Source: Hymenobacter sp. DG25B
GTDB taxonomy: Bacteria; Bacteroidota; Bacteroidia; Cytophagales; Hymenobacteraceae
NCBI RefSeq assembly: GCF_000801315.1
Contig: NZ_CP010054.1
Span: forward strand, 1,922,001-1,986,000
DNA length: 64,000 nt
Direction of reading: 5' to 3'
This document shows, piece by piece, positions 2,423-61,868 of the stretch. Position numbers and translations under genes: made by a program. The notes beneath the pieces were generated by a model. That model was not told the origin of the DNA. It saw nothing but the letters and a program-made list of their open reading frames with translations, and searched no databases. Positions within the stretch are counted from its first letter, which is position 1; every line of letters starts with the position of its first letter.

Positions 2423-2896
2423 TTAATACTGCCACCCCAAACGCCGGTAGATAAAGTGCAGCAGCCAGAGCGGGCCAATCAGTAGAAACTGCAGATCCTT
2501 CAGAAAGCTGGGCTTTTTGCCTTCTACTTTATGCCCCCAGAACTGCCCAATCCAGGCCAGCACGAAAATAATAAGGCACACCGCCCACAGCGGTAAGCCC
2601 GCCCCGGCATCAACCACCCGAATTCCCAGGGCCATGGCCGCGGTGATGAGCACCATGCCCAGCGCCAGCCGCACCGAGAGCCGGAAATAATACCCTACCG
2701 CCAGCACCATCACCAGCGTGGCCAGGTTGAGCCATGGGCTGGTAGCGCGTAAGCTATGCGGCATCGGCACCGACCACAACAAGCCCAGGAGGGAAAACAT
2801 AATCAGCGGGACGCACACCCAGTGCACCAGCTTATTCGTGGGGTTTTGGTGGCTTTCACCGTATTCGGCGAGCAAGGCATTCAGGGCAGCAGACAT
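2423..2896 (-). CDS. Mpo1-like (DUF962) membrane protein
   Basis: A 157-residue membrane protein. The N-terminus MSAALNALLAEYGESHQNPTNKLVHWVCVPL has the NP-x-N-x-x-x-H-x-x-x-x-P pattern of the DUF962/Mpo1 family, followed by four hydrophobic helices. The yeast Mpo1 relative is an Fe(II)-dependent dioxygenase that alpha-oxidises 2-hydroxy fatty acids; whether bacterial members share that reaction is not established here. I chose the ATG at 2896 rather than the in-frame ATG at 2950, because family members begin at this point and the longer form would start right against the terminator hairpin at 2957-2989. No Shine-Dalgarno sequence is visible. Confidence 0.8.
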   Translation of the reverse strand: MSAALNALLAEYGESHQNPTNKLVHWVCVPLIMFSLLGLLWSVPMPHSLRATSPWLNLATLVMVLAVGYYFRLSVRLALGMVLITAAMALGIRVVDAGAGLPLWAVCLIIFVLAWIGQFWGHKVEGKKPSFLKDLQFLLIGPLWLLHFIYRRLGWQY

Positions 2897-2956
2897 GGCA
2901 GAGTAGGAGGTAATGAGTTGGATTAAAAATAGGGGTTTAGAATCTGCCATAAAAGC

Positions 2957-2989
2957 AACACGCCTTCCCGGATTCCGGGAAGGCGTGTT
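2957..2989 (-). terminator. Rho-independent terminator of the dienelactone hydrolase gene
   Basis: A perfect 16-bp inverted repeat (arms 2957-2972 and 2974-2989) lies just past the stop of the 3020-3907 gene. On the minus strand it is followed by GCTTTT. The central AT-poor palindrome TCCGGATTCCGGA explains the very short nominal loop. Confidence 0.8.
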
Positions 2990-3019
2990 TACTGAAAATT
3001 GAACAGCAGCCGTAGGGCC

Positions 3020-54214: not shown

Positions 54215-54230
54215 TATCTGGTCTTGAATT

Positions 54231-54274
54231 AAAAAAGGGCGGCCCTAACCAAATGGTTAGGGCCGCCCTTTTTT
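54231..54274 (+). terminator. Rho-independent terminator of the small basic protein gene
   Basis: 21-bp arms (54231-54251 and 54254-54274) around GGGCGGCCCTAACCA, with an A/T-tract inside the stem, so it may work in both directions. Confidence 0.88.
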
Positions 54275-54346
54275 ATGTATACGTGTGCCCGGTATCCATT
54301 ACCAATAATAGAAAGTGGCTTAGAGTGGCTGCCTACACGAAGTTTG

Positions 54347-54378
54347 TTTGCAAACCCATCAATCCGGTTTTACCTTTG
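54347..54378 (+). promoter_or_regulatory. Promoter of the permease/riboswitch transcript
   Basis: TTTG (54347-54350), a 20-nt spacer and TACCTTTG (54371-54378) fit the Bacteroidota consensus without mismatch. The sequence just downstream (CTTTGGGGCATCAATTCTTT) closely matches the cysH leader promoter on the other strand, CTTTGGGCACCAATTCTTT. Confidence 0.8.
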
Positions 54379-54406
54379 GGGCATCAATTCTTTCTAGCCC
54401 AAAGGA

Positions 54407-54526
54407 TTGTTTTTATACAGAGACGCGGAGAGAAAGGCTCTACGATGCGTCGGCAACCTCCGCTAATGGCCGGAACGGTGCCCAACCGAAGGTCAGAGAA
54501 GCTACTTCCTGACAATATAAAAACAA
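54407..54526 (+). promoter_or_regulatory. SAM-I-type riboswitch upstream of the amino-acid permease
   Basis: P1 is TTGTTTTTAT (54407-54416) with ATAAAAACAA (54517-54526). After ACAGA comes P2 GACGC (54422-54426) with GCGTC (54447-54451), enclosing GGAGAGAAAGGCTCTACGAT; here GAG/CTC replaces the usual GGG/CCC as a compensating change. GGCAACC follows, then a short P3 (TCCG/CGGA), the ACGGTGCCCAACC core, and P4 GTCAG-A-GAAG/CTTC-CTGAC (54492-54513). This order and these conserved bases are those of the SAM-I clan. It is read by eye without a covariance search; the exact subfamily is open. Confidence 0.85.
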
Positions 54527-54532
54527 CACACC

Positions 54533-54637
54533 GTGGACTTCTGCCCCCGCTTTACTGCCCCGCTTTTTAGTTCTCCCGCCTTCCAGCGCGTCCCTTTGCG
54601 TGCCGCCTGTTGTTGCGCCGGATGTTGTTGCTGTTAA
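54533..54637 (+). CDS. Polycysteine leader peptide (34 aa) upstream of the permease
   Basis: A GTG-start ORF begins exactly 6 nt after the 3' end of riboswitch helix P1 and runs 34 codons. It starts M-D-F-C-P-R-F and ends R-A-A-CCC-A-G-CCCC-stop, so seven of the last nine residues are cysteine (TGT TGT TGC ... TGT TGT TGC TGT TAA), eight cysteines in all. The A-rich P1 3' strand (ATAAAAACAACACACC) sits where Bacteroidota ribosomes favour A-rich sequence. Its likely role is as a cysteine-responsive leader whose translation reports Cys-tRNA supply. A matching ORF precedes cysH. Expression is not proven. Confidence 0.75.
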   Translation: MDFCPRFTAPLFSSPAFQRVPLRAACCCAGCCCC

Positions 54638-54647
54638 CCAGCAGCAG
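54625..54647 (+). promoter_or_regulatory. Hairpin spanning the leader-peptide cysteine codons and stop
   Basis: TTGTTGCTG (54625-54633) pairs with CAGCAGCAG (54639-54647), nine pairs including two G-U, with loop TTAAC containing the stop codon. The 5' arm is the last cysteine codons, so a ribosome there would melt it. Confidence 0.5.
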
Positions 54648-54856
54648 GGCCGCCCTTTCAGGGAGCAAGCGCCCGAAACTCTAATTCTCGTTTTTCTCTC
54701 TTTCGGATTTGTGGCCTGCTCTGTTTCAGAGGTAAGGTAGCCGCCCCTGTGTGTCCTGGGTTCCGGCAGCCGCTTTCGTCACAGCCGGCGCCAGGAATCA
54801 ATTAACCCAACGTGTGCTCCGGCGGCTTTGCTTCGCCGGACACGACTACCCACTAT
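54648..54856 (+). other. Untranslated leader between polycysteine ORF and permease
   Basis: 209 nt with no further ORF of note. A CTCGTTTTTCTCTCTTTC pyrimidine tract lies near 54687-54704. A hairpin CCGGCG...CGCCGG (about 54815-54840) sits 20 nt before the start codon. Either could form part of an expression platform; no clear intrinsic terminator was identified. Confidence 0.4.
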
Positions 54857-56314
54857 ATGCTTAAAAAATCACTGGAACTGCTGCGGCAGGAAGCCGCCGA
54901 AACCGGCGCTAATACCTTAAAACGAAGCCTGAATGGCTTTAATTTGATTACCATTGGCATTGGGGTAATTATTGGGGCCGGCCTGTTCTCGCTGACGGGT
55001 ATTGCGGCCGCCAACAATGCCGGGCCGGCCGTTACTCTGTCGTTTGTAGTGGCGGCCGTTGGCTGCGCTTTTTCTGCCTTATGCTACGCTGAGTTTGCCT
55101 CCATGGTGCCGGTTTCCGGCTCGGCCTATACCTATGCCTATGCCACCATGGGGGAGCTTTTTGCCTGGATTATTGGCTGGGATTTGGTCCTGGAGTATTC
55201 CGTAGGCGCCGCTACGGTGGCCATTAGCTGGTCGCAGTACCTCCTGAGGTTTCTCGGTAAGTACGGTATTCATTTGCCACCCCAGCTGGTAATGTCGCCG
55301 TTTGAAACGGCCGCTTTGGCGGATGGCAGCACGGTGCATGGCTTTGTGAATATTCCGGCCATGCTCATCGTGCTGGCTATTACCATGATTATCATTCGGG
55401 GCACGGCCGGCTCGGCGTGGTTTAATGCGCTGGTAGTTACGCTGAAGGTGGCCGTAGTACTGGTGTTCATTGCCCTGGGCTGGCAGTACATTGATCCGGC
55501 TAACTATCAACCCTACATTCCGCAGAATACCGGCGTGTTTGGGGAGTTTGGCTGGAGCGGGATTCTGCGCGGGGCCGGCGTGGTCTTCTTCGTGTTTATC
55601 GGGTTTGATATTGTGGCCACCATGGCTCAGGAAACCAAGAATCCGCAGAAGAATATGCCCATCGGCATCATCGGCTCCCTGCTGATCTGCACGGTGCTAT
55701 TTGTACTGTTTGGCCACGTGATGACGGGACTGGCCAACTACACGGAGTTTAAAAACAGCGCCGCGCCGGTAGCCATTGCCATTGAGAAAACGCCCTATGC
55801 CTGGCTTTCATCGGCCGTTATCCTGGCCATTATCATCGGGTATACGTCCGTTATTCTGGTGGATTTGCTGGGGCAGAGCCGCGTGTTTTTCTCCATGGCG
55901 AAAGACGGCCTGCTGCCGCCGGTTTTCTCGCGTATTCACGAGCAGTTCCGCACACCGTTGCAATCCAATCTGCTGCTGGGGTTGTTTATAGCCCTGTTTG
56001 CGGGCTTCGTGCCCATTTCCGTTGTCGGCGAAATGACTTCCATTGGTACTTTGCTGGCTTTTGTGATGGTGTGCCTGGGCATTCTCATCATGCGCAAGAA
56101 AGAACCCGATGCGCCCCGTGGTTTCCGCACGCCCTGGGTACCGCTGGTGCCTATTCTGGGTATTGTAACCTGCCTGATTATGATGGTGTCGTTGCCCTGG
56201 GAAACGTGGCTGCGCCTGGCCGTTTGGCTGGCTATTGGTTTGGCTATCTACTTCGGCTATGGCAAGAAGCACAGCAAGCTGGGGCAAAAAGCGCAACAGA
56301 AACAGATAGTATAG
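54857..56314 (+). CDS. APC-superfamily amino-acid permease (CAT-like), SAM-riboswitch controlled
   Basis: 485 residues, about 12 membrane helices. The APC signature is present: LITIGIGVIIGAGLFSLTGIAAANNAGPAVTLSFVVAAVGCAFSALCYAEFASMVPVSGSAYTYAYATMGELFAWIIGWDLVLEY, and later VFFVFIGFDIVATMAQETKNPQKNMPIGI. It resembles cationic/small-amino-acid transporters of the CAT group. The SAM riboswitch and polycysteine leader upstream suggest the substrate is methionine, cysteine or a relative rather than a basic amino acid; that is inference from regulation. Start ATG 54857 (MLKKSLELLRQEA). Confidence 0.9.
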   Translation: MLKKSLELLRQEAAETGANTLKRSLNGFNLITIGIGVIIGAGLFSLTGIAAANNAGPAVTLSFVVAAVGCAFSALCYAEFASMVPVSGSAYTYAYATMGELFAWIIGWDLVLEYSVGAATVAISWSQYLLRFLGKYGIHLPPQLVMSPFETAALADGSTVHGFVNIPAMLIVLAITMIIIRGTAGSAWFNALVVTLKVAVVLVFIALGWQYIDPANYQPYIPQNTGVFGEFGWSGILRGAGVVFFVFIGFDIVATMAQETKNPQKNMPIGIIGSLLICTVLFVLFGHVMTGLANYTEFKNSAAPVAIAIEKTPYAWLSSAVILAIIIGYTSVILVDLLGQSRVFFSMAKDGLLPPVFSRIHEQFRTPLQSNLLLGLFIALFAGFVPISVVGEMTSIGTLLAFVMVCLGILIMRKKEPDAPRGFRTPWVPLVPILGIVTCLIMMVSLPWETWLRLAVWLAIGLAIYFGYGKKHSKLGQKAQQKQIV

Positions 56315-56337
56315 GCAACCGCTTCCTGCTGGATGTA

Positions 56338-56375
56338 ATAAAAAGCCCCGCCGTATATTACGGTGGGGCTTTTTT
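56338..56375. terminator. Bidirectional terminator between convergent sulfur transcripts
   Basis: AAAAGCCCCGCCGTA pairs with TACGGTGGGGCTTTT, ending in TTTTTT on the plus strand and AAAAAGCCCC reversed on the minus. It separates the permease from the siroheme/TSUP fusion gene. Confidence 0.85.
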
Positions 56376-56394
56376 GTGCAATACTCTTCCTGAC

Positions 56395-57906
56395 TTATAT
56401 AAGCAGCCGGCGCAACGACCACATACTCCACACAATTACCATCAGGCCCACGCCCACAAACATCCAGCGCACGGGAATGCGGCCGGCCAGGCGGGCTGCC
56501 AGCGGGGCCGCCGCCACGCCGCCCACAATCAGCCCCAGAATAATCTGCCAGTGCGAAATGCCAATGGTGGCGAAAAAGGTAACAGCGCTGGCAAACGTGA
56601 CGAAGAACTCCGTCACACTCACCGAGCCGATAACGTACTGTGGCGTGCGCCCGCCGGCAATGAGCGTGCTGGTCACCAAGGGGCCCCAGCCGCCCCCGCC
56701 AAAGGAATCCAGGAACCCGCCGGCCGCCGCCAGTATTCCCAGCTTCTTGTGCTTTTTGCGCGGACCGGGTTTAGAAAAGGCTTTGGAAATAATGCGCAGG
56801 CCCAGCAGCAGCAGGTACAGGGAAAGGAAAGGCTTCACATAAGCCCCGTATTCCTCCCCAAACTTCGCCAAAAGATAAGCCCCGGTAATGGCGCCCAGCA
56901 CCCCCGGAATCAACAGCACTTTAAACAGCTTGCGGTTCACGTTGCCGAAGCGGTAATGATGATAGCCTGAGGCCCCGCTGGCAAACATTTCGGCGGTATG
57001 AATGCTGGAGCTCACGGCCGCCGGCGAAATATTCAGCGTCATCAGGCTGATGGCCGTCACCACCCCGTAGCCCATGCCCAGCAGGCCATCAATGAGCTGC
57101 GCACCAAACCCAATGGCCACAAAAAGAAAGAACGTATCCGAAGACGTGGCTGCTTCCCACACCTGCTGCCATGTGAAGTAGTAGGAGAGGATGTTGAACA
57201 CCAGCATGGCCGCGAAGGCCAGCAGCGAGCCGGTAGCAATATGGCGCCAGCGCGCCGCCGCCGGCGACTCATAGGCCGGCCCCCCGGCCAGCTCCGCCGT
57301 TACCTCATTCAGCGACTTTACTTTTTTGGCGAAGTCGCCGCCCACTTTCTCCCGAATCACGGTCATGTGCTGGAGCACGTCGTGCAGCTCCTGGGGCAGG
57401 GTGTGGCTTAGCATTTCGCGCAGGCGCTTGGCAATGGTAGCCGACTTTCCGTTGGTGCTGATGGCAATTTTCAGGTCGCCCTTCTGCACAATGGAACCCA
57501 GGTAAAAGTCACAGGCCTCGGGCATGTTGGCCACGTTGCAGAGCAGGCGCTGTAGCGTAGCATCGGCCTTAATGCGCAGGTTGAGCGTCTGGTCATGGGT
57601 GGCCACAATCACCAGGTCGTGGCCCACCAAATCGGTGGCTTGGTAGGGCTGCTCGCGCAGTTGTACCGAAGGGTGCTGTGCCGCCAGCCGCTTCAGCTCC
57701 GGCGAAAACCAGGTAGCCACTACCGTTACCGCGGCGCCAGGACTGTTCAGCAGCATCGCCGACAGCTTCTCGCAGCCAGTCCCGCCCCCGCCCACCAACA
57801 GCACATGTAATTGCTCCAGCTTCAAAAACACCGGAAACAGCCGGTTGGTACCGGGTAGCGGCGGCGGTTCTGGCTGGGGCATAGGGTTATTAGCGGAGAG
57901 CGGCAT
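56395..57906 (-). CDS. Fusion of siroheme-synthase NAD-binding domain with TSUP (TauE/SafE) transporter
   Basis: 503 residues. The N-terminal 200 match the precorrin-2 dehydrogenase part of CysG/Met8 (LFPVFLKLEQLHVLLVGGGGTGCEKLSAMLLNSPGAAVTVVA, VANMPEACDFYLGSIVQKGDLKIAISTNGKSATIAKRLREML). The rest is an eight-helix TSUP sulfite/sulfate permease (FGAQLIDGLLGMGYGVVTAISLMTLNISPAAVSSSIHTAEM, GFLDSFGGGGWGPLVTSTLIAGG). It thus joins siroheme synthesis (sulfite-reductase cofactor) with transport of sulfate, sulfite or a related anion. Last gene of the cysHDN operon, 202 nt after cysN. ATG 57906. Confidence 0.9.
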   Translation of the reverse strand: MPLSANNPMPQPEPPPLPGTNRLFPVFLKLEQLHVLLVGGGGTGCEKLSAMLLNSPGAAVTVVATWFSPELKRLAAQHPSVQLREQPYQATDLVGHDLVIVATHDQTLNLRIKADATLQRLLCNVANMPEACDFYLGSIVQKGDLKIAISTNGKSATIAKRLREMLSHTLPQELHDVLQHMTVIREKVGGDFAKKVKSLNEVTAELAGGPAYESPAAARWRHIATGSLLAFAAMLVFNILSYYFTWQQVWEAATSSDTFFLFVAIGFGAQLIDGLLGMGYGVVTAISLMTLNISPAAVSSSIHTAEMFASGASGYHHYRFGNVNRKLFKVLLIPGVLGAITGAYLLAKFGEEYGAYVKPFLSLYLLLLGLRIISKAFSKPGPRKKHKKLGILAAAGGFLDSFGGGGWGPLVTSTLIAGGRTPQYVIGSVSVTEFFVTFASAVTFFATIGISHWQIILGLIVGGVAAAPLAARLAGRIPVRWMFVGVGLMVIVWSMWSLRRLLI

Positions 57907-58108
57907 TTTGGTTGTATTCAGAGAAGTGAAAGCAGAAATGCAGCCGTATCTGTTGAAGTGTGACACGGTTTTTTTGCTGGAGATATTCCGCACAACCGCC
58001 CCAGCTGTTAGCTTCCTGGCTTCAGAAGCAGAATGAGGTAATGCGTTGTTTTGAAGTTACTTGAACTAAATTATTTAATTTTTAGGGTAACTCCTGCGCT
58101 CCGGAGCT

Positions 58109-59386
58109 TCAGCCTACTACACTGGCCGGCACAAGGGGAGAAAAAACGGCCTCCACCGCGCCAATCAGCCCGGCGGCTACCGTATCACCGCTCAGCTCAT
58201 CTACCAGAATAAATGAGCCGGTGGCGCGGTTCTGGCGGTAGTGGTCCACGGCCAGCGGTACGGCGGTTTTCAGGCGTACCCGCACGATGTCGTTTAGCTG
58301 GGCCGAGTCGGTGGGGGCTTGGGCGAAGGTGTGCACGTTTACCTTGTGCAGGATGGCCGGAATGGCGGCTTTCACCAGCGCCGCGTGGTGCTGCAGCAGC
58401 AGCCTGCGGCCGGGCAGCAGGGGCTGCTCACTCATCCAGCACAGCGTAGCTTCCAGCTCCCGCGTGAGGGTAGGCTCGTCGTTTAGTGGCACCAGGGTGT
58501 CGCCCCGGCTCACGTCCACATCATCGCGCAGCCGAATGACTACGGACTGCGGAGCTGCCGCCGTTTCCACTGCCTGCTGACTGACTTCAATGGCTTCAAT
58601 CGTTGATTCCTGGCCCGAGGGCAGAATGCGCACTTTATCACCGGGGCGGTACTGGCCGCTGAGCACCTGACCGGTATAGCCGCGGTAGTCGGGCAGCTCG
58701 GGCGTTTGCGGGCGAATAACATACTGCACCTGGAAGCGGGGAGCGGCGGCCACTTCTACGGCGCCGGGCACCCTTTCCAGGTGTTCCAGCAGGCTGGGGC
58801 CCGTGTACCACGGCAGCTGCCGGGAGCGGGTTACCACATTGTCGCCGTGCAGAGCACTCAGCGGAATGGCCCTGGCTTTGGGAAGTTGGAAGTGGTCGGT
58901 AAGGGCGGCGTAGTCGGCGGAAATCTGGTTGAAAATTGTCTCATCATACTGCACCAAATCCATCTTATTCACGGCCAACACAAAGTGCCGGATGCCTAGG
59001 AGCGCGGCAATAAGCGTGTGGCGGCGGGTTTGCTCAATCACGCCCTGGCGCGCATCCACCAGCACAATAGCCAGGTCGGCGTTGCTGGCGCCCGTCACCA
59101 TATTGCGGGTGTACTGCACGTGGCCGGGGGCATCGGTAATGATGAACTTGCGGCGGGGCGTGGTGAAGTATTTGTAGGCGACATCAATGGTGATACCCTG
59201 TTCCCGCTCGGCGCGCAGGCCGTCCGTCAGCAGGGCCAGATCCACTACGCCGTTGGAAGCCTGACGCTTTTCCAGCGCGGCCAGTACATCCAGGGAAACA
59301 GATTCAGAATCGTAGAGCAGGCGGCCAATCAAAGTGCTTTTGCCGTCGTCGACGCTGCCGCAGGTGATAAATCGGAGAAGGTCCAT
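58109..59386 (-). CDS. cysN: Sulfate adenylyltransferase subunit 1 (GTPase)
   Basis: 425 residues: translational-GTPase motifs GSVDDGKSTLIGRLL (G1), ITIDVAYKYF (G2), DAPGHVQY (G3) and NKMDLV (G4), then two beta-barrel domains (YTGQVLSGQYRPGDKVRILPSG). With CysD it couples GTP hydrolysis to ATP + sulfate giving APS. No APS-kinase (CysC) fusion is present, consistent with APS being reduced directly. Start ATG 59386; a longer frame reads into the REP-like repeat. Confidence 0.95.
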   Translation of the reverse strand: MDLLRFITCGSVDDGKSTLIGRLLYDSESVSLDVLAALEKRQASNGVVDLALLTDGLRAEREQGITIDVAYKYFTTPRRKFIITDAPGHVQYTRNMVTGASNADLAIVLVDARQGVIEQTRRHTLIAALLGIRHFVLAVNKMDLVQYDETIFNQISADYAALTDHFQLPKARAIPLSALHGDNVVTRSRQLPWYTGPSLLEHLERVPGAVEVAAAPRFQVQYVIRPQTPELPDYRGYTGQVLSGQYRPGDKVRILPSGQESTIEAIEVSQQAVETAAAPQSVVIRLRDDVDVSRGDTLVPLNDEPTLTRELEATLCWMSEQPLLPGRRLLLQHHAALVKAAIPAILHKVNVHTFAQAPTDSAQLNDIVRVRLKTAVPLAVDHYRQNRATGSFILVDELSGDTVAAGLIGAVEAVFSPLVPASVVG

Positions 59387-59431
59387 GGGGTGAGTTAGTG
59401 ATTTGGTGAAATGGTGAGTTTTCCGAACCGT

Positions 59432-59543
59432 CATGCTGAGCCTGTCGAAGCATCTCGCGTGCTGATGTTGCAGTGCTAATCACGGTATACCACATTAGCG
59501 AGATGCTTCGATCCTCTGCTTGATGCGCAGAATGCTCAGCATG
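59432..59543. repeat. REP-like nested inverted repeat between cysD and cysN
   Basis: Outer pair CATGCTGAGC/GCTCAGCATG (59432-59441, 59534-59543) and inner pair CGAAGCATCTCG/CGAGATGCTTCG (59446-59457, 59499-59510). The GTCATGCTGAGC motif recurs at the dnaN terminator and, as GTCATCCTGAGC, at 60517. Confidence 0.8.
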
Positions 59544-59566
59544 CTGTTCGAATGGAATTTCACCAC

Positions 59567-60478
59567 TTAGAAATAGCCGTTGCGTTTCCGGTCTTCCATG
59601 CCGGCCTCAGAGATGTTGTCATCGAGACGAGTAGCCCCCCGCTCGCTAACCTTGGCCAGCAGCAGTTCTTCAATGATGTCTTCCACGGTAGCGGCGTCAC
59701 TTTCTACCGCGGCGGTGCAGGTGGAGTCGCCCACGGTGCGGAAGCGCACCTGCCGGGTCACAATCTCATCGTCCTGATCCAGCCGGATGTGCTCCGTGAG
59801 GCCCAGTAGCTGGCCGGAGGGCAGCACCACACAGGTGCGCTCATGGCCGAAATAAATGTCGGGCAGCGCAATGTTTTCGCGCTGGATGTAGCGCCACACA
59901 TCCAGCTCCGTCCAGTTGGAAATGGGGAATACGCGCACGTTTTCGCCCTTCTGAATGCGGCCGTTGTAGATGTTCCACAACTCGGGGCGCTGGCGCTTGG
60001 GGTCCCACTGGCCAAACTCGTCGCGCACAGAGAAGATGCGCTCCTTGGCGCGGGCCTTCTCTTCGTCGCGGCGGGCGCCGCCAATGCAGGCATCAAACGC
60101 AAACTCCTCAATAGTCTCCAGCAGGGTGTAAGTCTGCAGCGGATTGCGGCTGGGATACTTACCGCCCGGCTCATGCAGGCGCTGCCGCTTAATGGTTTCC
60201 TCCACGCGGCGCACAATCAGCTTCTCACCCAACTGCTCGGCCAGCGCATCGCGGTAAGCCAGCACCTCGGGAAAGTTGTGGCCGGTATCCACGTGCACCA
60301 GCGGGAAGGGAAACCGACCGGGCCGAAAGGCTTTTTCGGCCAGGCGCGTGAGCACAATGGAGTCTTTGCCACCGGAAAACAGCAGGGCCGGCCGCTCAAA
60401 CTGGCCGGCCACTTCCCGCAGAATATGGATGGCTTCGGCTTCCAGCCGGTCGAGATAATCGAAAGTGGGGGTACTCAT
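59567..60478 (-). CDS. cysD: Sulfate adenylyltransferase subunit 2
   Basis: 303 residues with the PP-loop LLFSGGKDSIVLTRLAEKAF, VDTGHNFPE, IGGARRDEEKARAKERIFSVRDEFGQWDPKRQRPELWNIYNGRI and the C-terminal RTVGDSTCTAAVESDAATVEDIIEELL, all typical of CysD. It is the catalytic ATP-sulfurylase subunit working with CysN. Both neighbouring junctions of this gene carry REP-like repeats. Confidence 0.97.
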   Translation of the reverse strand: MSTPTFDYLDRLEAEAIHILREVAGQFERPALLFSGGKDSIVLTRLAEKAFRPGRFPFPLVHVDTGHNFPEVLAYRDALAEQLGEKLIVRRVEETIKRQRLHEPGGKYPSRNPLQTYTLLETIEEFAFDACIGGARRDEEKARAKERIFSVRDEFGQWDPKRQRPELWNIYNGRIQKGENVRVFPISNWTELDVWRYIQRENIALPDIYFGHERTCVVLPSGQLLGLTEHIRLDQDDEIVTRQVRFRTVGDSTCTAAVESDAATVEDIIEELLLAKVSERGATRLDDNISEAGMEDRKRNGYF

Positions 60479-60514
60479 GTATGTAGTCGGGCTATCAGTT
60501 CAATTTTTTTCAAC

Positions 60515-60612
60515 TGTCATCCTGAGCTTTGCGAAGGACCTTCTCCCGTTTGAATTACCACCGAACGGTTTCGTTCTGGTGTGACAAGGTCCTTCGCAAG
60601 CTCAGGATGACA
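60515..60612. repeat. REP-like inverted repeat between cysH and cysD
   Basis: Arms of about 27 bp with one bulge (60515-60542 and 60586-60612): TGTCATCCTGAGCTT...GCGAAGGACCTT and its complement. There is no U-tract on the minus strand, so read-through from cysH to cysD is expected. Confidence 0.82.
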
Positions 60613-60618
60613 AAGAAT

Positions 60619-61398
60619 TTAAGTAGTAGCCGGCACCGGTTCTACCACCGGGTCGGGGCCGTTGTGTGCAGCGGTGGTGTGCAGGCCGCATTCTTTGGCC
60701 GATAGATCTTCCCACCACCAGCGGCCGGCGCGGAAATCCTCGCCGGGCCCAATGGCGCGGGTGCAGGGCGCGCAGCCAATGCTGACAAATCCCTGCTGGT
60801 GCAGCGTGTTCACCGGAATACCGTGTTGCTGGGTGAAGGTCACCGCCTCGTCCCAGGTCCAGTCGAACAGCGGGTGGACTTTCATCAGGTTGTGCGCGGC
60901 GTCCCACTCCATGGATTCCATGGTCTGGCGGTTCTGGGATTGTTCGGCCCGAATGCCCGTTACCCACGCCTGCCGGCCCGCCAAGGCTCGATTCAGGGGC
61001 TCTACTTTGCGGATAAAGCAGCATTCCTTGCGGTTGTCCACGCTCTCGTAGAAGGAGTTAGGGCCTTTCTCTAGGAGCAGGTTTTGCACCCCGGCCTGCT
61101 GCGGAAAGAACACCTCAATGGGCTTCTGATACTTGAGCAGCGTCTTGTTCCAGGTGGCGTAGGTTTCCTGAAAATTGCGGCCAGTATCCAGCGTAAACAC
61201 CTGAATAGGCAGGTCGAACTCAAAAATCAGGTGGCTGATAATCTGGTCTTCCAGCCCAAAGGAGGTGGAAAACACGGCCTGCTCGGGGAAGTATTCGGCC
61301 ACGAGGCGCAGCCGTTCCAGGGCCGAAGCCTGAATCAGCCGGGGGCGCAGGTCGTCCAGCAAGGCGTGGACGGCCAGCGCAGCATTTGCTGCAGACAT
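60619..61398 (-). CDS. cysH: Assimilatory APS reductase (4Fe-4S type)
   Basis: 259 residues. PAPS/APS-reductase fold (AVFSTSFGLEDQIISHLIFEFDLPIQVFTLDTGRNFQETYATW). Both cysteine pairs that hold the 4Fe-4S cluster of APS-specific enzymes are present: RKECCFIRK and GCAPCTRAI. The C-terminal KECGLHT carries the catalytic cysteine. It reduces APS to sulfite with thioredoxin. Start ATG 61398. First gene of the cysH-cysD-cysN-siroheme/TSUP operon, behind a 430-nt leader with a SAM riboswitch and a polycysteine ORF. Confidence 0.96.
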   Translation of the reverse strand: MSAANAALAVHALLDDLRPRLIQASALERLRLVAEYFPEQAVFSTSFGLEDQIISHLIFEFDLPIQVFTLDTGRNFQETYATWNKTLLKYQKPIEVFFPQQAGVQNLLLEKGPNSFYESVDNRKECCFIRKVEPLNRALAGRQAWVTGIRAEQSQNRQTMESMEWDAAHNLMKVHPLFDWTWDEAVTFTQQHGIPVNTLHQQGFVSIGCAPCTRAIGPGEDFRAGRWWWEDLSAKECGLHTTAAHNGPDPVVEPVPATT

Positions 61399-61609
61399 AA
61401 CAGGAAAGTAGGAGAGGAGAACCAAGCAGTAAGCCCGGATTCCGGCCAAACAATGGCCCCGGCAGCGGACAGCGGCGTTACAGCACAACGACGCGTAGTG
61501 CCCGGCGAGGCAGAAGGCGGGGTGGGCAGCTACGGAGCGGCTATGCGCACAAGCGCATCAGCGGGCCATCAGTAGAAGCACACAACCAGAACAGCGGAGG
61601 GGTGTGGTG
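61399..61609 (-). other. Untranslated leader between polycysteine ORF and cysH
   Basis: 211 nt, close to the 219 nt at the same place before the permease. A hairpin GCTATGCGC/GCGCAT-C-AGC (61540-61562) and a smaller GGCCA/TGGCC (61444-61458) are visible. No U-tract terminator was found. Confidence 0.4.
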
Positions 61610-61705
61610 CTAGCAACAACAGGGCATACCCATCATGGCACAACACCCATGCTGTACAGCAGAGGAGGTGGCGGATGTGGTAGCGGAGTTGAGGAAGCGT
61701 TTCAC
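61610..61705 (-). CDS. Polycysteine leader peptide (31 aa) upstream of cysH
   Basis: A GTG-start ORF exactly 6 nt after riboswitch P1, 31 codons. It starts M-K-R-F-L-N and ends H-G-CC-A-MM-G-M-P-CCC-stop (TGT TGT GCC ATG ATG GGT ATG CCC TGT TGT TGC TAG). Five cysteines and three methionines crowd the last 12 residues. GGGTGTTGTGC, over the first Cys pair, can pair (10 of 11) with GCACCACACCC directly after the stop codon. Start position and ending parallel the permease leader ORF. Likely a translation-based sensor of cysteine (perhaps also methionine) supply. Confidence 0.75.
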   Translation of the reverse strand: MKRFLNSATTSATSSAVQHGCCAMMGMPCCC

Positions 61706-61711
61706 AGTCTG

Positions 61712-61809
61712 TTGTTTTTATATGCCCAGGACTTGGCACCGTTTCGGATGGTCCGCTGGTTGCCGGCGCTTCGTAGAGCCTGTCTCTCCACGCCTCTGTA
61801 TAAAAACAA
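61712..61809 (-). promoter_or_regulatory. SAM-I-type riboswitch upstream of cysH operon
   Basis: Read on the minus strand: P1 TTGTTTTTAT (from 61809) with ATAAAAACAA (ending 61712). ACAGAGGCG then leads into P2 (GGCG/CGCC), the GGAGAGACAGGCTCTACGAAG core with GAG/CTC covariation, CCGGCAACC, P3, and ACGGTGCCAAGTCC. The order matches SAM-I; P4 looks much shorter than in the permease copy. The first half from GGATTGTTTTTATACAGAG is identical to the copy at 54404. It is positioned to switch off sulfate assimilation when SAM is plentiful. Confidence 0.87.
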
Positions 61810-61835
61810 TCCTTTGATGGTAAAGAATTGGTGCC

Positions 61836-61868
61836 CAAAGATAGGGTCCGAAATTTTACACTTCCAAA
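61836..61868 (-). promoter_or_regulatory. Promoter of the cysH operon
   Basis: On the minus strand TTTG (61868-61865), a 21-nt spacer and TATCTTTG (61843-61836) match the Bacteroidota promoter exactly. The predicted transcript begins about 20 nt before the riboswitch. Confidence 0.8.

Follow-up and report, generated by a model that had tools for sequence, protein, structure and literature searches.

In many Bacteroidota a very short gene with cysteine and methionine codons at its end appears to stand directly under an RNA switch that senses SAM

Why should a bacterium place a very short open reading frame ending in cysteine codons immediately behind an RNA that senses S-adenosylmethionine (SAM), and do so on both strands of the same region? 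This question is raised by two leaders in a stretch of 64,000 nucleotides (nt) of Hymenobacter sp. DG25B (contig NZ_CP010054.1, positions 1,922,001 to 1,986,000; "the window" below means this whole stretch), one in front of an amino-acid permease gene on the plus strand, the other in front of cysH on the minus strand. Polycysteine short open reading frames in mycobacteria are reportedly cysteine-responsive attenuators, as is said to have been described by Canestrari in 2020. The original prediction for this DNA was that sensors for SAM and for cysteine are combined in one leader before sulfur genes, as a trait of this lineage. Many Bacteroidota seem to have such a tiny gene, with Cys and Met codons at its end, directly under an RNA switch for SAM, and each window leader is probably a serial attenuator with two layers, in which SAM would gate translation of the upstream open reading frame (uORF) and the supply of charged Cys-tRNA and Met-tRNA would set ribosome stalling at its end.

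The two leaders have the same order of parts, promoter-like site, aptamer, GTG-initiated uORF and gene, and the predicted coordinates of this layout were confirmed on both strands:

54347..54378, plus strand: Bacteroidota-type promoter-like site TTTG-N20-TACCTTTG of the permease leader (sequence match)
54410..54523, plus strand: SAM-I (S-box) aptamer of the permease leader (RF00162, 68.1 bits, E 1.6e-14, model positions 1-108)
54516..54526, plus strand: 3' strand of the P1 stem in its extended form of 11 bp (UAUAAAAACAA), which overlaps the A-rich stretch before the uORF start (sequence)
54533..54637, plus strand: uORF of the permease leader, GTG start, 34 codons, ending VDFCPRFTAPLFSSPAFQRVPLRAACCCAGCCCC before the stop (sequence; the trait recurs in relatives)
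61836..61868, minus strand: Bacteroidota-type promoter-like site TTTG-N21-TATCTTTG of the cysH leader (sequence match)
61715..61806, minus strand: SAM-I (S-box) aptamer of the cysH leader (RF00162, 72.5 bits, E 8.6e-16, model positions 1-108)
61712..61722, minus strand: 3' strand of the extended P1 (UAUAAAAACAA), adjoining the uORF start (sequence)
61610..61705, minus strand: uORF of the cysH leader, GTG start, 31 codons, ending VKRFLNSATTSATSSAVQHGCCAMMGMPCCC before the stop, a tail of Cys and Met (sequence)

Both aptamers score above the RF00162 gathering cut-off of 44.4 bits and cover the full model, so the covariance search bears out the SAM-I-like aptamers of the original prediction. Their 5' ends carry the same letters (GGATTGTTTTTATACAGAG), as had been noticed, and the extended 11-bp P1 is formed by UUGUUUUUAUA / UAUAAAAACAA. 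The GTG codon had been placed 6 nt after P1, which holds in both leaders for the extended stem, while the gap is 9 nt from the Rfam-defined end. The uORFs have the expected 31 to 34 codons and end in the expected cysteine runs (CCCAGCCCC, in short form, in the permease leader and CCAMMGMPCCC in the cysH leader), and the distance from uORF stop to gene, predicted as about 215 nt, is 222 nt for the permease and 211 nt for cysH. The promoter-like sites end 155 nt (plus strand) and 131 nt (minus strand) 5' of the uORF start, with the aptamer in between; these predicted sites speak against a leaderless short open reading frame of the mycobacterial type.

Three of the four RF00162 matches in the whole genome carry a Cys-tail uORF directly after P1, namely those before the permease, cysH and O-acetylhomoserine sulfhydrylase (OAHS; uORF end MENTLAFACSNPLAPAALLRPGPSTDVCVSAFVTTRMRMRCCCSACCCCC), and there is no such uORF after P1 in the fourth, the metH leader. 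The pattern TGYTGYTGYTRR has 172 matches on both strands of this genome, many of them CTG-type repeats by eye, and since it is so common in a GC-rich genome the two window cases alone are weak evidence and the comparative test carries the weight. RF00162 was found in 120/120 genomes of the genus and 59/60 of the family that were searched. For the order we took all 110 RF00162 matches listed for 59 genomes (the filters lose some weak matches), defined a uORF by an ATG or GTG 5-14 nt after P1, counted those with at least three Cys in the last 12 codons, and took as the null 20 dinucleotide shuffles of the sequence that follows the start region. A short Cys-ending frame of this kind, for which the original prediction had proposed a scan of relatives, follows 39 of the 110 aptamers, whereas the shuffles gave 0.85 on average and never more than 3. 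By downstream gene (classes from motif regexes within about 1.5 kb, gene starts taken from the longest open reading frame) these are OAHS in 21/33 cases, cysH in 4/6, APC permease in 3/3, ATP-grasp in 4/4, NirA-like in 1/1, TonB/SusC in 3/5, cysteine-desulfurase-like in 2/2 and others in 1/19; before methionine-type genes of the order set there was none in 37 (metH 0/33, CBL/CGS 0/3, metK 0/1). Likewise, 50/54 sulfur-gene leaders, 1/36 methionine-gene leaders and 13/20 others have a start codon between +7 and +12 from P1. Cys-tail uORFs occur in 10 of the 18 order families with any SAM match, and in 10/12 with a sulfur-gene SAM leader.

A second set was anchored on the OAHS protein (alignment of 14 proteins) instead of the aptamer, and consists of the best 80 named loci among the matches listed. 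RF00162 is present at 59 of them, 57 times within 700 nt upstream of the gene; the only families reaching their gathering score in these 80 loci are RF00162, tRNA and tmRNA. Among the 57 leaders, 30 have tails with at least three Cys, 11 more have at least two Cys or Met, six have uORFs with fewer, and 10 lack a start codon at +4 to +16. The group of 30 includes Pedobacter, Mucilaginibacter, Sphingobacterium, Pontibacter and Hymenobacter, but also Thermonema, Lewinella, Saprospiraceae, Psychroflexus and a Flavobacteriia metagenome-assembled genome (MAG). In the named Hymenobacter OAHS leaders (L201, L210 and L211) the uORFs are similar to that of the window genome. At class level the sample took in 28 further loci and three additional regions, out of 79 matches listed. 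The arrangement is no local feature, being found in 10 of the 18 SAM-bearing order families and in named Sphingobacteriales, Saprospiraceae and Flavobacteriia. Some OAHS leaders (L208, L146 and L158) have a short uORF with a single Cys-Met pair (QCM, RCM) instead of a run. SAM leaders also stand before TonB-dependent receptor or SusC-like genes (L135, L145, L164, L172 and L173; three of the five with a Cys-tail uORF), possibly uptake systems for sulfur compounds, and the same leader type precedes an ATP-grasp-like protein, assigned by eye, in L040, L130, L137, L147 and L170.

How are the two modules joined? To compare the leaders with one another we used 84 strict uORF leaders, namely those among loci L001-L196 and the 59 named loci with a SAM aptamer whose uORF begins at +4 to +16 and has at least three Cys in the last 12 codons. 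Loci L005-L059, as the best-scoring among the matches listed, are a biased choice; they were used in this set and for counting terminators but have no part in the order counts. All leader statistics count related leaders individually, without correction for relatedness. The last 8 nt of P1 hold on average 0.48 G/C in the 84 uORF leaders versus 2.85 in 33 metH leaders. Pair 3 of P1 is C-G in 27/33 metH leaders and U-A in 75/84 uORF leaders, and pair 8 is C-G in 29/33 of the former and A-U in 78/84 of the latter. Judging from these letters, P1 of the uORF class is remodelled on both strands, and the A-rich stretch that precedes the uORF start makes up its 3' strand. Before this start the frequency of A is 0.80 at -14, 0.71 at -13, 0.69 at -12, 0.60 at -6 and 0.48 at -3, and the spacing from P1 to the start is narrow, with a mode of +9. 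The stem also extends beyond the Rfam stem by a mean of 2.17 bp in uORF leaders and 0.36 bp in metH leaders. The promoter pattern of the window leaders recurs within 90 nt upstream of the aptamer in 36/84 leaders of the uORF class, where 0.25 would be expected from mononucleotide shuffles, and in 2/33 metH leaders.

Bacteroidetes are reported to be naturally without Shine-Dalgarno sequences, and in Flavobacterium johnsoniae A at -3, -6, -12 and -13 and low structure favour initiation (PMC6847099). In SAM-I switches that sequester the ribosome-binding site in the aptamer core, this site is described as lying in the 3' side of P1 (PMC2258182). If the same logic applies to a P1 that covers a uORF's start region, SAM would silence that uORF, as we infer from the architecture: the SAM-bound aptamer would stabilise P1, whose 3' strand holds the A-rich region, and uORF translation would cease. 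The two sensors would thus work in series, not side by side, since the sequence just before the uORF start lies within P1.

The alternative is a parallel wiring, in which the uORF is translated whatever the SAM level, and the riboswitch by itself controls transcription or the main gene. Some support for it comes from leaders in which a Cys or Cys/Met frame does without RF00162. One of these, L251 (a Flavobacteriaceae MAG, region 2520-3000), has a polycysteine leader frame close behind a TATATTTG element; another, L269 (a Kapaibacterium MAG, region 2520-3000), has a Met/Cys-rich leader frame followed by a hairpin and a U tract, by eye, and looks like a classical attenuator. Neither these two nor L253 had an Rfam match up to E 0.5, and hence no SAM aptamer match; L253 is not counted as a leader peptide because its Cys-rich frame has no clear start codon. 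The uORF and aptamer modules are therefore separable. In the SAM leaders, however, the spacing is narrow, P1 is remodelled specifically in this class into an A-rich start region, and no regular terminator follows P1, so that a parallel wiring seems improbable to us.

In the serial reading, low SAM would let ribosomes load on the uORF, and their progress through its last codons would report charged Cys-tRNA and Met-tRNA. What argues that the tail is read as codons? In the order set, 40/44 runs of at least three TGY (TGT or TGC) in the first 260 nt lie in frame within the uORF, and in the OAHS-anchored named set 28/29 TGY runs are in frame. The four order-set runs outside a defined uORF belong to L186, where the start codon overlaps P1 (by eye), L192, L193 and L074, where a second run follows the uORF stop. 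TGT and TGC are mixed in 92% of the 84 tails, and the last Cys is the final codon in 28 of 38 uORFs. All 84 peptides are distinct, yet the Cys-codon runs are retained while the rest of the uORF diverges, which is the conservation in relatives that the original prediction had proposed to look for. A trinucleotide-repeat or chance artefact, which could appeal to the many matches of TGYTGYTGYTRR in this GC-rich genome, is left with practically no chance and was rejected on the frame of the runs, the mixing of TGT with TGC, and the comparison with shuffles (39/110 versus 0.85).

The tails hold methionine as well. In 80 uORFs with at least two Cys in the tail (those long enough out of a wider 84), Met makes up 106 of 881 non-Cys positions in the last 16 residues and 15 of 1849 in the bodies. 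In the frame test (82 of the 84 strict uORFs, those of sufficient length) the tails have 116 ATG in frame and 10 in each of the other two frames, with 17-20 expected per frame from composition, while the bodies have 12, 9 and 3 in the three frames against the same expectation. Because the tail ATGs are concentrated in frame only, the tail appears to be read as codons; it holds both sulfur amino acids, and the uORF is better named a sulfur-amino-acid (Cys plus Met) leader. Of the predicted combination of SAM and cysteine sensors in one leader before sulfur genes, the presence of both modules thus stands, at the level of sequence, while the tail is one of Cys plus Met and the arrangement would be serial rather than side by side. 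Other uORFs with Cys motifs are known to sense metals such as copper, and Cys and Met would suit Cu(I) as ligands, so that metal sensing by the peptide itself may be considered; yet the genes in question are sulfur genes that stand behind a SAM aptamer, and the runs vary in length and spacing, which makes this reading a far-fetched one.

Several observations weigh against the two-layer scheme as described so far. In the order set 12/33 OAHS leaders fail the Cys count; three of them (L186, L192 and L193) have a Cys run whose start the uORF definition misses, but the other nine have a uORF without a Cys run, or no uORF. The 84 leaders were chosen by start distance (+4 to +16) and by having at least three Cys, so the position of the A-tract is partly fixed by the fixed P1 distance and by this selection. 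Leaders with swapped partners still give 1.19 bp of P1 extension, so only part of the extension is specific.

What, then, would the sensors act on? Most likely, sulfur-gene expression would need ribosomes held on the uORF, as when SAM is scarce and so is Cys or Met; without held ribosomes the bare, pyrimidine-rich and weakly structured uORF RNA, with the sequence that follows, would allow termination of transcription, for which Rho is the most plausible agent. Rho-linked control is the output that we favour, though as the weakest step of the scheme and at somewhat less than even chances. C exceeds G in 98% of 51 uORF bodies and in 94% of 48 sequences of 100 nt after the stop. In 76% of 82 cases the uORF body is less structured than the main coding sequence, which is expected of G-poor RNA anyway. 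An intrinsic terminator as the general output, in the manner of a trp-type attenuator, was not supported as a class feature: terminator-like hairpins of -10 kcal/mol or below occur in 18% of 84 uORF leaders (shuffles 7%), at no fixed position, compared with 21% of 56 metH leaders (shuffles 3%) and 96% of 23 CBL/CGS and hom leaders (shuffles 13%). The CBL/CGS and hom leaders of the same family among L005-L059 have a very uniform predicted terminator (e.g. GCTCTTCTGACTTGTCGGAAGGGCTTTTTT) about 50-60 nt after P1, a conventional SAM-I platform within the same genomes.

The case for Rho has its own weak points. C also exceeds G in 78% of 51 main coding sequences and in 71% of 35 methionine-class leaders, so the bias is a weak sign of Rho use. 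Terminator-like sites of uORF leaders exceed the shuffles at -8 kcal/mol as well (30% versus 15%), and intrinsic terminators may therefore serve some lineages, while metH leaders are mostly terminator-free too (21% of 56), so that the lack of terminators does not set the uORF class apart. Between the Cys run and downstream sequence, pairing has a mean z of -0.25 (t -2.3), against -0.18 and -0.09 in controls.

In the chief rival of a Rho-linked output the sensors are the same but the stalled ribosome alters downstream folding, by a terminator and antiterminator or by unmasking the start of the main gene. Translation attenuation has been described for mycobacterial cysteine genes (PMC13236596). 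Post-stop hairpins with apparent partner changes in Pedobacter leaders (by eye), the roughly twofold excess of terminator-like sites over shuffles and the Met/Cys tail followed by hairpin and U tract in L269, which has no SAM aptamer match, fit this explanation. Set against it are the lack of a fixed position of the terminator-like sites, a pairing of the run with downstream sequence that is barely beyond controls, and a gap between stop and gene that ranges between 46 and 394 nt when gene starts are picked mechanically. Folding six orthologue groups (7, 4, 7, 7, 5 and 5 sequences) to a consensus gave no common structure. With the uORF body the Cys run pairs weakly too (mean z -0.25), and with the P1/start region pairing is absent (+0.21). 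We regard a folding-based output as possible but rather unlikely.

The sign of the control could also be reversed, uORF translation repressing the main gene and SAM relieving this repression. SAM-I switches usually turn sulfur genes off, and here the aptamers stand before sulfur-assimilation genes, which speaks against such a reversal. For uORFs at B12 riboswitches both signs are reported, with the metE uORF of Mycobacterium tuberculosis as a repressing case (PMC11260477), and this keeps the reversed sign in consideration, as a very unlikely reading.

Taken as a whole, the scheme would extend across the Bacteroidota: the SAM-I aptamer would be a translational gate of a leader peptide within a serial sensor of three signals (SAM, then Cys-tRNA and Met-tRNA), and the pyrimidine-rich uORF would be a Rho-loading site that is covered only by the queue of ribosomes behind a stalled one. 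We put this complete chain forward tentatively. If it is true, one leader senses several sulfur metabolites in series, linking direct metabolite binding with codon-based sensing of tRNA, and bacteria free of Shine-Dalgarno sequences build a riboswitch output by rewriting the closing stem of the aptamer into A-rich sequence at which a leader peptide is started. A single SAM regulon would then be split into sulfur-assimilation genes with the uORF and metH or CBL/CGS genes without it. The arrangement also offers a means of spotting, from sequence, sulfur transporters and enzymes that are so far uncharacterised; it occurs as well before genes for TonB-dependent or SusC-like receptors and ATP-grasp proteins.

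The genes behind the two window leaders form the convergent sulfur operons of the original prediction, the permease on the plus strand facing a cysH-cysD-cysN-CysG-N-domain fusion operon on the minus strand:

54860..56314, plus strand: APC-family amino-acid permease, ATG at 54860 (best NCBIfam model BcaP, E 1.4e-169, 565 bits, below its cut-off of 690 bits)
60619..61398, minus strand: cysH-type APS/PAPS reductase, ATG at 61398, first gene of the sulfate operon (NCBIfam NF002537.0, 255.1 bits, E 6.8e-76, above cut-off)
59567..60478, minus strand: cysD, sulfate adenylyltransferase small subunit (TIGR02039.1, 415.5 bits, above cut-off)
58109..59434, minus strand: cysN, sulfate adenylyltransferase large subunit (TIGR02034.1, 533.3 bits, above cut-off)
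56395..57897, minus strand: CysG N-terminal domain, then a membrane-like half, by eye (TIGR01470.1, 108.4 bits, residues 21-191 of the scanned frame, above cut-off)

The second half of the fusion protein had no match in the NCBIfam scan, the only one made of it. Between cysD and cysH (60509-60665) there is a long REP-like inverted repeat (CCTGAGCTTTGCGAAGGACCT...), with an RF02901 match of 31.7 bits, below the cut-off of 97. A palindromic, strong terminator-like sequence (GGGCGGCCCTAACC...GGTTAGGGCCGCCCTTTTTT) lies at 54229-54280, 3' of the gene upstream of the permease leader.

Among open-licence papers we found no description in which a SAM riboswitch is coupled to a leader peptide of the cysteine or Cys/Met type, an absence that is not proof, and an account of a flavobacterial transcriptome mentions leader-peptide attenuation of amino-acid operons, with no mention of SAM in the parts compared (PMC9723704). 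The closest relatives of the individual parts are therefore worth setting beside the Bacteroidota leaders. Cysteine leader peptides are reported from the Actinobacteria Mycobacterium, Propionibacterium acnes and Bifidobacterium longum, and resemble ours in that a short frame precedes cysteine genes, has Cys runs near its stop and lacks a conserved terminator; for these, too, Rho was suggested, as in tna, although the authors themselves call their polyY evidence weak (PMC1262725). They belong to another phylum and, in the accounts compared, have no riboswitch in front, whereas in the Bacteroidota the uORF is built onto P1 of a SAM aptamer, contains Met codons besides Cys, and precedes genes of many types. 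The metL leader peptide (MSTTSDRTPATEATTTPGARCMCRRMCAF) of Streptomyces lividans shares Cys and Met codons near its end and the lack of a typical terminator, but it precedes the methionine importer metNIQ and is leaderless, and its description, as far as compared, mentions no riboswitch (PMC8079986). Upstream of cysS in Rhodobacterales, uORFC-8-2 has Cys codons and a proposed ribosome-mediated attenuation; it differs in having two tandem Cys codons inside a motif that ends in a terminator, and no riboswitch in the passages compared (PMC8632094).

On the riboswitch side, translational SAM-I switches (RF00162; PMC2258182) have the same aptamer family and a ribosome-binding region in P1, but in the leaders described here the gated frame would be the leader uORF, not the sulfur gene 46-394 nt past its stop, and the gated region is an A-tract, not a Shine-Dalgarno sequence. 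In the B12 riboswitch with uPPE2 of M. tuberculosis, a riboswitch controls a translated uORF needed by the downstream gene; there the ligand is B12, the uORF and the gene overlap, reportedly with termination-reinitiation, and no run of amino-acid control codons is described in the parts of that account compared (PMC11260477). We thus rate the parts as separately known and their probable serial wiring as new, in an arrangement that is widely distributed.

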